Shown here in pieces: positions 9,671 through 33,202 of a DNA stretch of 37,289 nucleotides. Each line of letters opens with the position of its first letter. Within the stretch, counting starts at the first letter, position 1. Source of the stretch: Acidobacteriaceae bacterium (GTDB lineage: Bacteria > Acidobacteriota > Terriglobia > Terriglobales > Acidobacteriaceae); NCBI GenBank assembly GCA_003131585.1, contig PKVW01000056.1:5589-42877 (forward strand). The letters run 5' to 3'. The translations under genes were made by a program, and so were the position numbers. A model generated the notes under the pieces. The model was given only the letters and a program-made list of their open reading frames with translations. It was not told the origin of the DNA and did no database searches.

Positions 9671-10129
9671 CTATTTTCGGCCGGGATGGGCCTCGCCCTG
9701 GCCGGAGAACAAGTTGTAGGGCCAGGCATTCCCGCTCTTGGCCGCGGCCGTGCCCGCACCGCCAGTGGAGCTGGCACTGGGATTGGGGGCGCAGTTCCAA
9801 TCCGCCGGCGGATCGGCAATCCCCCACACATTCCCGTGGTTGTACAGCGCCACTCCGATAAGAAAATATTTCCCGTCATTGCCCAGCGGCAGGCAAGTCG
9901 CCACGCGGGCAGAAGCGCTTCCGCCGCCCGGCAGATCGCTCATCAGCACTGGAGTTTCGAGTGGCAAGGCTTGCGATGCGCGGAATCCGCAGCCCTGCGC
10001 GCTCACTACGAGGGCGGCACATTCCGCACAGAACGGATGCTTCCGATCCATGCTGGTCACGGTCACGGGAATCTCCACACGCAATCGCGTGCTGCGCCGC
10101 CTCGTCGTCCTGGGTGTGAGTATTTCCAT
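9671..10129 (-). CDS. PilZ-like domain protein with start codon in a tandem repeat
   Basis: The product is 152 residues. The N-terminus TPRTTRRRSTRLRVEIPVTVTS fits the arginine-rich opening of PilZ proteins (RxxxR then a first strand). VVSAQGCGFRASQALPLETPVLM fits the S-x-x-G turn and next strand, and FLIGVALYN fits a late strand. The last 40 residues are Ala/Gly/Ser-rich and probably disordered. The start is well fixed: an in-frame TAA sits 6 nt upstream of ATG 10129. That ATG lies in the first of four 15-nt repeats, and each upstream copy makes a three-codon start-Glu-stop frame in the same phase. Confidence 0.6.
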   Translation of the reverse strand: MEILTPRTTRRRSTRLRVEIPVTVTSMDRKHPFCAECAALVVSAQGCGFRASQALPLETPVLMSDLPGGGSASARVATCLPLGNDGKYFLIGVALYNHGNVWGIADPPADWNCAPNPSASSTGGAGTAAAKSGNAWPYNLFSGQGEAHPGRK

Positions 10130-10183
10130 TCTGCGTTATTCCACTCTGCGTTATTCCATTCTGCGTTATTCCATTCTGCGTTA
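10124..10183 (-). repeat. 15-nt tandem repeat x4 containing a start codon
   Basis: Four copies lie at 10124-10138, 10139-10153, 10154-10168 and 10169-10183. On the minus strand the unit is AATGGAATAACGCAG. Each repeat carries ATG (GTG in the second) followed by GAA TAA, so repeats 2-4 are minimal ORFs in frame with the PilZ-like gene. Only the copy nearest the gene reads ATG GAA ATA and stays open. Between each TAA and the next start there are six bases (CGCAGA). Confidence 0.95.
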
Positions 10184-10365
10184 TTTCACCGGGACTCGCG
10201 CCGTCCCCAACACACAGTTTGACAGAACCGGGGCTGGTCGCATCCCTAAGAAAGATCTAATGAGGATGACGGAAGTAACCTTCGGCTGCGTCGAGGGCAG
10301 GGCGGAGCGTCGCTTTCGCTCATTCGAAGACCGCTGCCTTGCGCTGTTAAGATGGCTCGACATCC

Positions 10366-16767: not shown

Positions 16768-19700
16768 CTACTTCCTTCGAGACAATCCCCACAACAATGC
16801 CCCGCCTGCTGCCAGGGCAGCTAACCCCAGGCCGGCGCGCTTCATGGACTGGAACACTTCGGCCTCGCGGCGACGGGCGCGTGCGGACTCTGGATAGGGG
16901 AGGGATTCGGGCGCGCTGGAGCCTGCGCCGGTCGCGTTCAGCGCCATCTGGAGGACCTCAGCCAGGTGAAGGGCATGGCGGGGCGAGCCGTGAGCGATCT
17001 GTTCGCGGCAACTGAAGCCGTCGGCGATGATCAGCCAGTCGGGCGGAGCATGGCGGACGGCGGGGAGGAGTTCGAGCTCGCCGATGGCGATGGACAGGTC
17101 GTACTTATCGGGATCGAAGCCGAAGGAACCGGCCATGCCGCAGCAACCGGGAGCGGGGCTGTGGACGTCGACGCCCATGCGTCCGAGGACCGACTCTTCG
17201 GCGGTCATCTTCATGAGGGATTTGTGATGGCAGTGACCGTGGAGGAGCGCTTTGCAATCGAGCCGGGGCAGCGGGAAATTCTTTGCGCTGGTCTCCAGGA
17301 ATTCGCTGAGCAGGAAAGTCTGGCGCGACAAGGCTTGCGCCCGCTCGTCGTGGGGAAAGAGGTTGAGGAGTTCGTCACGAAACACGGCGACGCAGCTAGG
17401 CTCGAGGCCGACGATGGGAATGCCAGCTTCGATTTCGGGGGAGAGTTCGTCGAGAATCTGAAGCAGAAGCGCGCGGGCACGGTCGAGCATGCCGAAGTCG
17501 TAGAGCGGGCGGCCGCAGCAAAGATTAGCTCTTGGGACGAGGACCCGGAAGCCGGCGGCTTCGAGGACATCGACGGCGGCCTTCGCGGTCGCGGGCTGGA
17601 AATAGTTATTGAAAGTGTCGGGCCAGAGGAGAACGGGCGTTCCCTCAGGGGCTAAAGCCCTTAGGTTTTCAGCGCTATACGGCACGGCTGAAGCCGTGCC
17701 CTTCCCGAGCGTATCCTTACGACGGCTCGCCAGGCGTTCCGATCGTCGGCGTTCAAACCAGGCTTTGAAAGTCTCCGGAGCGAAGGCTGGGATGGCGCGC
17801 TGCTTGGGAACTCCGGCGACGAGCTTTGAGACGTCGCGCAGGAACGGAAGTTGCGTGATCAGGTTGGCAACGCCGGGCGCGTGCGATGCGAGGTGCGCCC
17901 ACAGATCGATGTTGCCGAAAGCATAGGCACTGCGCGGCCGCAGGCGTCCTTCGTAATAATGGGAAAGAAACTCGGCCTTGTAGGTGGCAACGTCGACGCC
18001 GACCGGGCATTCGCTTTTGCATCCCTTGCAAGCGAGGCAGAGATCGAGCGACCGCTTCACTTCTTCACTGCGCCAGCCGTCGCGGATGATCCCATCTCTT
18101 CGACTTTGGCCCTGGGTCATCTCCCAGAGCAGGTGGGCGCGGCCGCGCGTGGAGTGTTCTTCGTCGTGCGTGGCGCGGTAGCTGGGGCACATCAGGCCGC
18201 CTTCTTCGCGGCGGCACTTGCCCACGCCCACGCAGCGCAGAGTTGCCTGGGCGAGGCTGCCGTGGTCGGCGAGGAACTGGAAGTTGGTTTTGGGTTCCCA
18301 TGGAGAGTAAGCGGCGCCGAGGCGGAGATTTTCGTCGAGCTTGTAAGGCTCGACCAGCTTGCCGGGATTCATCTTCCAATCTGGATCCCAGGCCGACTTG
18401 AAGTCACGGAAAGCCTGAACCAATTCCGGGCCGAACATTTTGGGGAGCAACTCGGCGCGAGCTTGACCGTCGCCGTGCTCGCCGGAGATGGAGCCGCCAT
18501 AGCTGACCACGAGGTCGGCAGCCTCTTCCATAAACTTGCGGAACTTGGAGATGCCGTCTTTCGATTGCAGGTCGAAGTTAATGCGGGTGTGTACGCAGCC
18601 GTGGCCGAAGTGGCCATAGAGCGAGCCTTTGTACGCGTAGGCGGCCATCATCTTGCGCAGATCGCGGAGGTAGCCGCCGAGTTTTTCCGGCGCGACCGCC
18701 GAGTCTTCCCAACCTTCCCAACTCATCGGTTCACCGGGCACATGGGAAGTGACGCCGAGGCTCGACTCGCGGACTTCCCACACGCGCTTTGCCTGCCGCG
18801 TGTCGGTGTAGAGACGCAGGTTCGGCGGATGCGCGCTGCGGGTGAGAGTCTGCATTAGACTGCGGGCCTGGGATTCGGCTTCCAGCGCGGTCGAGGCGCC
18901 GAACTCCACCATCAGCCAGCCTCCGCCCTCGGGCAGGAGCGCGAGGCCTTCGGAGTTGATCCCTTTCGCTCGCGTGTAGCCGACGAGAAGATCGTCGAAA
19001 CCTTCGAGTCCGATCGGCTTATGGGCCATGATTTCGGGCACATGGTCGGCGCATTGATAAATGTCGGGATAGGCGACGACCAGCAGTACGCGTTCGGGCG
19101 GACTCGCGACCAGCCGGCACGTCGCTTCGAGAACCGTGACACACGTGCCTTCGGAACCGACGAGCGCGCGCGCCACGTGGAATCCGTTCTCAGGCAGGAG
19201 AAAGTTCAGGTTGTAGCCGGAGACGCGGCGAGGAATGTTGGGAAAACGCTGGCGGACGAGATCGCCGTAGGCGGCGGCGATGGTTCGCAGCTTGGTGTAG
19301 ATCTCGCCGCGGCGGCCGCCTTGCTGGAGGATGCGATCGAGTTCCGCGCTGGACGTGGCTCCGACCTTCATGCGCACGCCGTCGTAGGTGAGGATTTCCA
19401 GTTCCTCGACGTTGTCGTCGGTCTTGCCGGCCATGACCGAGTGGACGCCGCAGGAGTTGTTGCCGATCATGCCTCCGAGAGTGCAGCGGTCATGAGTGGC
19501 GGGATCGGGGCCGAAAGTGAGATGGTGCTTTTCGGCAGCGGCGCGGAGATGGTCGAGCACCACTCCGGGCTGCACGCGGGCGATGCGGCGGGCAGGATCG
19601 ATTTCAAGAATCCTCGCCATATACTTGGAGAAGTCGAGGATGACGGCGACGTTGCAACACTGGCCGGCGAGAGATGTGCCGCCTCCGCGGCAGAGCAGGG

Positions 19701-19968
19701 GCGCGCCGAACTGGCGGCAGAGCGCAATCGTCGCCAGTACATCGTCGGCATCGCGAGGGAGCACGACGCCGATGGGGACCTGGCGGTAGTTGGAGCCGTC
19801 GGTGGCGTAGAGCGCGCGAGTGCCGCGGTCGAACCGAACGTTACCGCGAACGTCATCGCGAACTCCGCCGCGAAATTGCGCGCGCAGAGCTGCGGCCAGC
19901 CCCGGCGCGTCCACCTGCGCGGACTTTGATTTTGCGGCTTCGGCGAGTTCTGGGAATCTGTCTTGCAT
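16768..19968 (-). CDS. FAD-linked oxidase/Fe-S/CCG-domain fusion oxidoreductase (GlcD-GlpC type)
   Basis: The product is 1066 residues. In order: a PCMH-type FAD-binding domain (GGGTSLAGQCC near 95; TLGGMIGNNSCG near 160), an FAD-linked oxidase C-terminal domain, a ferredoxin-like part with CVGVGKC...CP (near 577) and CLACKGCKSECPVG (near 642), then two CCG motifs (NLCCGRPL near 815; PGCCGMAGSFG near 940). The order is that of D-lactate/glycolate dehydrogenase-like fusions, which oxidise a 2-hydroxyacid and pass electrons to quinone. A terminal hydrophobic helix (GLGLAALAAGGALLWGL) suggests membrane attachment. Residues 752-775 are encoded by a palindromic repeat lying in the linker before the CCG part. 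The gene follows the zinc-ribbon gene by 13 nt. Confidence 0.85.
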   Translation of the reverse strand: MQDRFPELAEAAKSKSAQVDAPGLAAALRAQFRGGVRDDVRGNVRFDRGTRALYATDGSNYRQVPIGVVLPRDADDVLATIALCRQFGAPLLCRGGGTSLAGQCCNVAVILDFSKYMARILEIDPARRIARVQPGVVLDHLRAAAEKHHLTFGPDPATHDRCTLGGMIGNNSCGVHSVMAGKTDDNVEELEILTYDGVRMKVGATSSAELDRILQQGGRRGEIYTKLRTIAAAYGDLVRQRFPNIPRRVSGYNLNFLLPENGFHVARALVGSEGTCVTVLEATCRLVASPPERVLLVVAYPDIYQCADHVPEIMAHKPIGLEGFDDLLVGYTRAKGINSEGLALLPEGGGWLMVEFGASTALEAESQARSLMQTLTRSAHPPNLRLYTDTRQAKRVWEVRESSLGVTSHVPGEPMSWEGWEDSAVAPEKLGGYLRDLRKMMAAYAYKGSLYGHFGHGCVHTRINFDLQSKDGISKFRKFMEEAADLVVSYGGSISGEHGDGQARAELLPKMFGPELVQAFRDFKSAWDPDWKMNPGKLVEPYKLDENLRLGAAYSPWEPKTNFQFLADHGSLAQATLRCVGVGKCRREEGGLMCPSYRATHDEEHSTRGRAHLLWEMTQGQSRRDGIIRDGWRSEEVKRSLDLCLACKGCKSECPVGVDVATYKAEFLSHYYEGRLRPRSAYAFGNIDLWAHLASHAPGVANLITQLPFLRDVSKLVAGVPKQRAIPAFAPETFKAWFERRRSERLASRRKDTLGKGTASAVPYSAENLRALAPEGTPVLLWPDTFNNYFQPATAKAAVDVLEAAGFRVLVPRANLCCGRPLYDFGMLDRARALLLQILDELSPEIEAGIPIVGLEPSCVAVFRDELLNLFPHDERAQALSRQTFLLSEFLETSAKNFPLPRLDCKALLHGHCHHKSLMKMTAEESVLGRMGVDVHSPAPGCCGMAGSFGFDPDKYDLSIAIGELELLPAVRHAPPDWLIIADGFSCREQIAHGSPRHALHLAEVLQMALNATGAGSSAPESLPYPESARARRREAEVFQSMKRAGLGLAALAAGGALLWGLSRRK
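17647..17700. repeat. Two-hairpin REP-like element inside the oxidoreductase gene
   Basis: GGGCT-AA-AGCCC (17649-17660) and GGCACGGCT-GA-AGCCGTGCC (17681-17700; 9-bp stem) are separated by about 20 nt. Both share the core GGCT-R-AAGCC. The element has the same order and spacing as the one at 29754-29809. It is in frame and adds about 20 residues to the encoded protein. Confidence 0.85.
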
Positions 19969-25339: not shown

Positions 25340-25848
25340 TTCTTGTCATCCTGCTTCTTGACGGTTCGCGTATTATCTGTTTCCTTCGTGGCGGCAGGAG
25401 CGTCGCTGGCTGCTTCTGGCGAACGCACGGGAAGTCCTTGTTGCACGAGCAAATCCATGGCGCGTTCAATGGGAATGCGCACCGTGCCGGCTTTTTCATC
25501 CGCCCAACCGTAGGTATTCAGGGTTTTGTCTTCTTCCAGACGGCTTCCGTTCAGTTGACCGCGCTCGTCTTCCTCCAGCTTGGGGTTGGGGAAGGCGCTC
25601 CGCGGGTATTCTGAGGAGATGTGCCTTGTGTCTGCGGGAAGATTGGTGACCAGAGGATTCACTGGAGGCTGCAAAGCTCTTTCGCGGTGATCGAGAAATA
25701 CATAGAGGCCCCTAAGGCCGAACATGCACAGCACCGTTCCCACCACCAGGGTCAACAAAAAATAGAGGATACCGGACACCGGCAGATCCTGGCGCTCGAA
25801 GCTGCCGTGCCCGGTTGTGTTCTCGTGTTTGCCGGTCTCGTGGTTCAT
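25336..25848 (-). CDS. Single-span membrane protein of the ACIII-caa3 operon, function unknown
   Basis: The product is 170 residues. A short polar N-terminus is followed by one transmembrane helix (ILYFLLTLVVGTVLCMFGLRGLYVF, about 27-51) and a soluble part of about 110 residues. The soluble part contains LNTYGWADEKAGTVRIPIERAMDLLVQQGLP, which looks like a small conserved fold, and then a Lys/Asp-rich tail. It contains no heme or metal motif. Similar proteins lie beside sco genes in related operons (from memory), so an assembly or stabilising role for the ACIII-oxidase complex is a reasonable guess. ATG 25848 lies at the end of a 14-nt repeat array. It overlaps sco by 4 nt. Confidence 0.7.
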   Translation of the reverse strand: MNHETGKHENTTGHGSFERQDLPVSGILYFLLTLVVGTVLCMFGLRGLYVFLDHRERALQPPVNPLVTNLPADTRHISSEYPRSAFPNPKLEEDERGQLNGSRLEEDKTLNTYGWADEKAGTVRIPIERAMDLLVQQGLPVRSPEAASDAPAATKETDNTRTVKKQDDKK

Positions 25849-25926
25849 CTCTGGTTGCTCATCTCTGGTCGCTCATCTCTGGTTGCTCATCTCTCTCTTT
25901 GCCCATCGCTCTTTGGCCATCTCTCG
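25841..25926 (-). repeat. 14-nt start-codon repeat array before the membrane-protein gene
   Basis: On the minus strand the units are GAGATGAGCAACCA (25893-25880), GAGATGAGCGACCA (25879-25866), GAGATGAGCAACCA (25865-25852) and a last GAGATGAACCA (25851-25841) that holds the true ATG. Two degenerate units (GAGAGATGGCCAAA, GAGCGATGGGCAAA) precede them. Three frames ATG AGC (A/G)AC CAG AGA TGA are chained, each TGA overlapping the next ATG. Confidence 0.93.
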
Positions 25927-29744: not shown

Positions 29745-29753
29745 GAAGTAAGT

Positions 29754-29809
29754 CGGGCTAAAGCCCGTTTCTTAAGAATTGTCCTGTGCGGCGCGGCTGA
29801 AGCCGCGCC
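29754..29809. repeat. Two-hairpin REP-like element between actB and actC
   Basis: CGGGCT-AA-AGCCCG (29754-29767) and GGCGCGGCT-GA-AGCCGCGCC (29790-29809) are 22 nt apart, in the same order and with the same cores as the element at 17647-17700. Here the element lies in the 80-nt gap of an operon, so it would be in the mRNA and could stabilise or attenuate it. Confidence 0.85.
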
Positions 29810-29824
29810 CTTTCAAAGCCACTA

Positions 29825-32902: not shown

Positions 32903-33202
32903 TGTTTTGTTGAAGGATTGGTTCCGTCCCTACGGGACTCGCTCCGCCTTCATCGTCGCTACCCGGCACTTCCGTGCCGGGCTTTCACATGCCGCCCCTT
33001 CGGGGCTCGTCCGGTTGCGCTTTTGGGTGGCGCAGCGCTTTAACGCTGCGATCAGCACCCACTCTATTCAGCGGCTTTAGCCGCCGAGGTACCTCAGAGG
33101 CTAAAGCCTCTTTTCAACTCAGCCTCAACCGCAGGCCTGAAGGCCTGCGCCACCCAAAAGCCAAAAACAATAGGTCAGATCAAGAGTACCGGGTGCCGCC
33201 CC
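32903..33202. repeat. Seven-hairpin cluster in the actA-actB gap
   Basis: Perfect hairpins lie at 32926-32938 (5 bp), 32962-32981 (8 bp, CCCGGCAC-TTCC-GTGCCGGG), 32994-33006 (5 bp), 33031-33050 (7 bp), 33071-33084 (6 bp, GCGGCT-TT-AGCCGC), 33096-33111 (7 bp, AGAGGCT-AA-AGCCTCT) and 33131-33148 (7 bp). A perfect 17-bp inverted repeat, GCTTTTGGGTGGCGCAG (33019-33035) against 33145-33161, encloses the last four. I see no gene here. Confidence 0.85.

Follow-up and report, generated by a model that had tools for sequence, protein, structure and literature searches.

An in-frame, double-hairpin REP-like palindrome in an Acidobacteriaceae oxidoreductase and its association with RAYT genes

The window analysed here, a 37,289-nucleotide stretch of contig PKVW01000056.1 from an Acidobacteriaceae bacterium (GCA_003131585.1), contains a palindromic segment that is translated on paper as part of a FAD/Fe-S oxidoreductase. 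This arrangement raises the question of what the segment is, how it entered a protein-coding gene and why the reading frame has survived it. A preliminary description of the locus had proposed a REP-like element, mobile now or formerly, that is tolerated in protein linkers in the manner of the Rickettsia palindromic elements. Here we delimit the element, follow its copies through the genome and the genus, and weigh the explanations for its presence.

The element, its host gene and its copies

The host gene (16768–19968, minus strand) is a single unbroken ORF of 1066 aa in the ORF list, and its protein combines FAD_binding_4, FAD-oxidase_C, Fer4 and CCG domains (Pfam). The FAD half is D-lactate dehydrogenase-like, and the PDB matches are D-lactate dehydrogenases. 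The element lies between the Fer4 part and the CCG domain, where the preliminary description had placed it; both hairpins are present, and the surrounding frame is intact. The extent originally given, 17647–17700, was right in location and slightly too narrow. When 40 genome copies were aligned with their flanks, information fell from more than 1 bit to background at the element ends, and these sharp ends therefore define the whole unit as 17643–17708 on the plus strand. These 66 bp, or 22 codons, run antisense to the oxidoreductase gene and code for about residues 754–776 of its product, GKGTASAVPYSAENLRALAPEG.

The general layout of the ~67-bp unit is CCTCAG, a first hairpin, a spacer of ~20 nt, a second hairpin and a tail, with CCTCAG and CCTTCCCGA as the consensus ends of the family. 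Folding and alignment place hairpin 1 of the window copy at 17649–17660 (GGGC-TAAA-GCCC) and hairpin 2 at 17681–17700 (GGCACGGC-TGAA-GCCGTGCC), both on the plus strand. The tail CTTCCCGA follows at 17701–17708 (plus strand) and was assigned to type TTCCCG from the copy alignment and the tail classes. The copy scores 76.3 bits at 17642–17710 against our covariance model, R1, and folded alone it gives z = −3.1 on the plus strand and −2.3 on the minus strand. Paired stem changes occupy 21 cells of the alignment against a shuffled mean of 4.7; they are confined to three of the 15 pairs, and neither the number of pairs nor the pair types exceed the shuffles. The GT[AG]G foot is absent from hairpin 1 in all 40 copies, and its complement occurs at hairpin 2 in one of the 40. 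The element is a GTAG-less, double-hairpin variant of in-frame REP/RPE-like palindromes, which are themselves known already.

The AlphaFold2 model of the window protein, built with 39 orthologues, has a mean pLDDT of 88, and residues 756–773 fall below 50 between confident helices and strands. Low confidence at this point is partly expected because the insert is absent from many of the aligned orthologues; the predicted structure nevertheless suggests that the element-encoded segment sits in a loop that seems tolerant of insertion, in keeping with the tolerance in linkers proposed at the outset.

Further family members occur in the window. The intergenic copy noted earlier near 29754 is indeed of the same type (29748–29819, plus strand, tail CTTTCAAAGC, 56.2 bits, E = 2.9e-14). 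An inverted dimer (inverted repeat I2) consists of a left half on the minus strand (33021–33090, 37.8 bits) and a right half on the plus strand (33091–33159, tail GCGCCACCCAAAA, 52.4 bits); the two meet head to head without a gap, in the same order as the copies that flank most RAYT genes (see below). A weak family match lies at 68–137 (E = 4e-4). The window also holds short tandem repeats at 10117–10191 (15 nt) and 25836–25891 (14 nt).

A 151-bp query around the element returned 42 BLAST matches in its own genome, including the window copy itself. Forty of these were used to build the covariance model, the left part of the other two being impossible to frame, and the model found at least 131 matches at E ≤ 1e-3 in the 3.93-Mb genome. 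This figure is a lower bound because scoring covered 150 candidates, which do not include the window copy at 33021–33090. Two copies in this genome (L092, 1957–2025; L098, 2006–2076) lie within a larger unit reaching ~30 bp further on each side, with near-identical terminal inverted repeats of about GTAGTGGGTCAGTTTGAA ... TTCAAACTGACCCACTAC, possibly a composite MITE.

Beyond this genome, all 37 genus genomes hold at least three family matches at E ≤ 1e-4 among the matches listed. Its distribution becomes patchy beyond the genus: 14 genomes from the same order together yielded one match to the model, and among ten genomes of the same class two carry at least ~80 matches, one carries three and seven carry none. 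The named relatives are Acidobacteriota and include Candidatus Sulfotelmatobacter.

The expectation that other genes should carry the element in frame was borne out. In the own genome, 32 of the 131 copies sit within an ORF of 180 aa or more that extends 35 codons or more beyond the copy on either side, a test that lets through spurious ORFs in GC-rich DNA. Requiring an open frame together with Pfam support leaves 15 in-frame copies in 13 conserved genes, so the parallel with Rickettsia holds for behaviour. These genes encode the oxidoreductase, MoaA, PurL (two copies), a DinG-like helicase, HemD, a peptidase C26, TilS (two copies), Dus, an Lhr-like helicase, an HpnE-like amine oxidase, RsmG, a Methyltransf_28 protein and hydantoinase A, the names DinG, HpnE and Lhr being our reading of Pfam matches. 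We take them to be core or essential genes elsewhere. The other 17 copies include one that makes up the C-terminal end of the RAYT gene itself (L339), copies in proteins with no Pfam match and copies in likely spurious ORFs; the census counts in-frame copies and leaves gene breakage by the other 116 listed copies outside its scope. Scoring the codon usage of the sequence around each of the 131 copies proved too weak, calling six in frame, and was replaced by the open-frame and Pfam criterion. One copy with coding sequence on both sides in different frames (L094) was judged by eye to lie in a gap between two genes.

Pfam domains span or bracket the copy in 12 of the 13 genes; for PurL, TilS and RsmG the bracketing draws on several Pfam stretches plus orthologue or PDB alignments. 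In Dus, the Pfam match stops at the element and the last part of the profile is unmatched. Structural alignments place the inserts in loops missing from the matched chains of MoaA (1tv7; query 95–126 versus chain 92–97), TilS (3a2k; 157–259 versus 116–122) and RsmG (1xdz; 248–310 versus 65–74), and the PDB match of HemD is too weak for such a comparison. In purL of the same genome, the two copies form an inverted-dimer-like pair, in frame, with a 6-bp gap.

The unit itself is not favourable to translation. Across 121 copies a mean of 2.4 of the six frames is open, against 3.7 of six in random local stretches, and an adaptation of the unit for translation was accordingly dropped as an idea. Because the unit is less open than random local DNA, the in-frame copies look like survivors of a filter and not like products of design. 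Copies of the TTCCCG type are in frame in conserved genes more often than others (12 of 47 versus 3 of 84, Fisher p = 2.9e-4), an excess that may arise because the model was built around the window subfamily, because this subfamily is younger, or because its RAYT inserts differently.

A second short repeat was observed nested in frame inside the element, with peptides such as LRLRSGQA, CPERSRR and ALSEQSEPKG, at L201 ~2000–2106 (hemD of genome G017), L372 2001–2093 (own genome), L114 736–829 and L194 1320–1413. Insertions inside insertions therefore also remain open.

Association with RAYT genes

The own genome contains 14 Y1_Tnp matches, of which two are pieces of one locus and one falls below the cut-off. 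The gene at C23:83773–84165 is a REP-associated tyrosine transposase (RAYT), matching NCBIfam NF047646 (REP_Tyr_transpos) with 105.1 bits against a cut-off of 80, and its sole PDB match is TnpAREP (4er8, E = 3.5e-8). Of 41 genus genomes, 24 contain relatives of this RAYT (E ≤ 1e-15), and 30 of the 43 matches were taken as a locus set.

These 30 loci contain 82 family copies in 96.5 kb under the covariance model. In 26 of the 30 loci a copy of the element lies within 400 bp of the RAYT gene on each side, and the order is inverted in 23; at the own locus, the flanking copies share one orientation, and the 5' copy is a fragment at the contig end. Thirty IS200-type Y1 loci used as a control yielded seven matches in 93.7 kb, and 30 purL loci yielded three in 125 kb, all of them in-frame inserts. 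An IS200-type Y1 gene beside a copy tandem on contig C48 had been considered as mobiliser and was rejected, two of those seven matches lying in its own locus.

RAYT clades and element types correspond closely. The RAYT tree comprises five clades, and the tail types of the flanking copies are TTCAAA in clade A (19/19), TTCCCG in B (7/7), TGATAC in C (6/6), CCACCC in D (18/18) and TCCACG in E (24/29). Clade thus matches tail type in 74 of 79 classified copies, three of the 82 being unclassified, with the caveat that one tail type, the fifth, was added once the data had been inspected. In a test on the first coding, with four classes and 24 loci, tail type required four changes on the RAYT tree against a shuffled mean of 12.3 and minimum of 10 (200 shuffles). 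Median copy number is 72 in the 21 genomes with this RAYT versus 34.5 in the 16 without (p = 0.0015), a comparison among the matches listed that takes no account of kinship or completeness.

Judged by this association, the RAYT is apparently the mobiliser of the element. By analogy with TnpAREP, this HUH/tyrosine single-strand transposase would recognise the hairpins and the tail and would move element copies through single-stranded DNA. The REP-like character claimed at the outset is in line with these loci. Present mobility of the window subfamily is a separate matter. Its tail, TTCCCG, is the type of clade B (G009, G011 and G018), and the search of the own assembly (96% complete) found no clade-B RAYT; ten of the 13 own Y1 loci, all but L009, L010 and L017, were placed on the RAYT tree. 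The window copy may therefore be an orphan whose RAYT has been lost or was not assembled, and the mobility of its subfamily today is doubtful.

Occupancy of shared loops and competing explanations

The oxidoreductase linker varies widely among relatives. An orthologue at E ≤ 1e-100 is present in 43 of 61 genomes searched, and the linker could be read in 33 of 37 same-genus genomes, G005 being truncated by a contig end and G017, G026 and G027 lacking a match; a second copy in G021 (61% identical) was excluded from the count. Linkers were not equally long in all orthologues: 19 of the 33 contain a family member (weakest match E = 4.5e-4), eight are short and empty, as expected if relatives lack the segment, and six hold other extra sequence. 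All 33 are open in frame, and outside the genus the linker is mostly short. In two sister species, G028 with a filled site and G036 with an empty one, the 45 bp preceding the site are identical; exact insertion junctions are unreadable in this pair because the short linker itself differs. Filled and empty pairs, whose exact junctions are not legible, show no readable target-site duplication or target motif. An orthologue from Acidobacteriaceae bacterium JOPF007 (L295, 57% identical) has at this linker a peptide that looks similar, KGHDFRRAGVDRKKDEALTPE. A programmed frameshift near residue 170 of the oxidoreductase in L040, L053 and L067 was considered and dropped; two N, a run of N and an ambiguous base, respectively, stand at the site, so that these shifts look like assembly gaps.

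Four further genes were followed through 41 genus genomes, with matches in 38 (tilS), 38 (purL), 39 (moaA) and 37 (hemD). Thirty loci per gene were aligned and 21 more were read by anchors, tblastn and the covariance model, and matches that stop short of the insertion site were excluded from the counts. The site holds a family member, is empty or holds other sequence in 22, 6 and 9 cases for tilS (n = 37), in 15, 16 and 4 for moaA (n = 35) and in 10, 21 and 3 for hemD, with one ambiguous (n = 35). In purL, three sites are filled (G000, G023, G022), three are slightly longer and 27 are empty (n = 33). Including the oxidoreductase, one stop-free frame crosses the site in 172 of 173 rows. The odd row is tilS of G026, whose frame shifts at two assembly N at the element edge and which for that reason cannot be judged. 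Stops first read in tilS of G028 lie upstream of the gene start as we read it and were set aside; its linker is open, and a later frame change falls in a locus with 27 N.

A species tree was computed for 37 species from the first locus set with inserts removed, and 17 of its 34 inner branches are starred. On it, presence of the element requires at least 7 (oxidoreductase), 5 (tilS), 8 (moaA) and 6 (hemD) changes, and 111, 82, 32 and 6 of 200 shuffles, respectively, are as low. Presence in the oxidoreductase and tilS is scattered like chance, moaA less so, and presence in hemD follows the tree. We read this scatter of presence and absence, as far as sequences can tell, as showing turnover, leaving the direction of gain versus loss aside.

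Taken with the RAYT association, these observations lead us to regard the oxidoreductase segment as very probably a copy of a REP-like mobile element that is non-autonomous, moved by a RAYT and kept in frame in flexible loops. Copies that arrive out of frame, carry a stop or strike a rigid part of a gene would be lost. In-frame copies in flexible loops would be retained and read through, adding ~22 residues; the sequences display such copies, and their translation is presumed. The same loops of several housekeeping enzymes would gain and lose copies repeatedly, the pre-CCG linker of the oxidoreductase being one such loop.

The strongest competitor replaces repeated transposition by a single ancestral insertion per loop, followed by vertical inheritance, repeated loss, deletion and gene conversion. 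The tree-like distribution in hemD fits such a history, as do the filled moaA genes, whose inserts share one frame and orientation and nearly one entry point. The insert common to G000, G028 and G020 lies at one point in the oxidoreductase, and between G000 and G028 its hairpins are identical while the spacer has diverged, a pattern that conversion or hairpin constraint could give. Against it, the oxidoreductase linkers of different species hold several subfamilies in both orientations, purL is filled in only three of 33 genomes, and hemD of G017 has an element within an element, which shows later gain. We consider one insertion per loop unlikely, though the most serious of the rivals.

The identical hairpins and diverged spacer of G000 and G028 could also reflect retention of the palindrome for an intragenic RNA or DNA function, such as translation pausing, mRNA protection or a binding site, with the peptide incidental. 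Intragenic copies do keep their stems as intergenic copies do; since the stems persist at every kind of location, a role specific to the gene is not required to account for this, and relatives without the element exist for each of the five genes. Such a function is improbable. Still less probable is recruitment of the encoded peptide for a function of its own: the frame is kept in 172 of 173 rows, as that idea would have it, but residues 756–773 have low predicted order (pLDDT below 50) and the same linker holds unrelated peptides or none in other species. Chance or misassembly in this draft of 75 contigs has a negligible probability and is ruled out by copies in separate assemblies, given at least 131 matches in the genome and an insert that G028 and G020 share at one and the same point.

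Known systems and significance

The element, apparently moved by a RAYT, has partial counterparts among known palindromes. The portions of PMC3733652 seen describe GTAG and CGTC REPs that in several species fall entirely within known genes, list the residues they encode, and report different REPs at about the same recB site in two Xanthomonas species; the link to RAYTs is discussed, and Koribacter, of the same phylum, appears there solely in connection with tyrosine transposases that have terminal inverted repeats. Like those REPs, the element is a short dispersed palindrome found partly within genes. Unlike the REPs described in these portions, it lacks a GT[AG]G foot, has two unlike hairpins in a ~67-bp unit, and turns over in the same loops across ~40 congeneric genomes.

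The Rickettsia palindromic elements (RPEs), as far as covered in the text seen of the review PMC10969869, are ~150 bp long and each carry an ORF for a conserved peptide. They resemble the present element in inserting in frame into unrelated genes at tolerated places; in contrast, the latter is ~67 bp long, is read in both orientations and several frames, and has an associated transposase. Enterobacterial RU repeats, known also from within genes (PMC2759123, in part), are likewise small mobile repeats able to add codons, whereas the basic unit here has no visible terminal inverted repeat or target duplication.

PMC6006769, in the sections available, reports RAYT genes with REPs at their flanks and also REPs that lie in frame within such genes. 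The REPtrons described there share with our loci the inverted copies flanking the gene and a distinct element type for every RAYT type. By eye, the motifs DHVH, WQ and YIRQNP read like the signature given there for subclass 2.7; that subclass goes with canonical GT[AG]G REPs in the same text, whereas the element here has no such foot. The Solibacter class 3 case mentioned in the excerpt belongs to another Y1 class than the RAYT here.

Among the matches listed in a search that left most subscription literature outside, neither in-frame palindromes in Acidobacteriota nor same-loop turnover across a genus came up as the subject of a paper. New in this analysis are the exact limits of the unit, its further host genes, the sites of turnover and the transposase clades matched to it. 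Rickettsia is the best-known setting of mobile palindromes in frame, and the text seen of PMC10969869 names no mobiliser for them there. With an element, a candidate transposase, filled and empty sister sites and reused loops in hand, the entry of selfish palindromes into proteins and its tolerance by enzymes become directly testable. For annotation, loop peptides such as GTAEAVPF, REGHDFSRA, ALAPE and WKSGASAPR in genomes of this genus probably derive from mobile DNA.

A broader reading, which we offer tentatively and do not quite favour, is that five RAYT-REP families with lock-and-key tails form a genus-wide standing source of in-frame insertions that re-enter and leave the same loops of core enzymes. 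If it is true, orthologous enzymes of close species would alternate between short and long forms, and protein loops in this genus would evolve under the drive of transposons.
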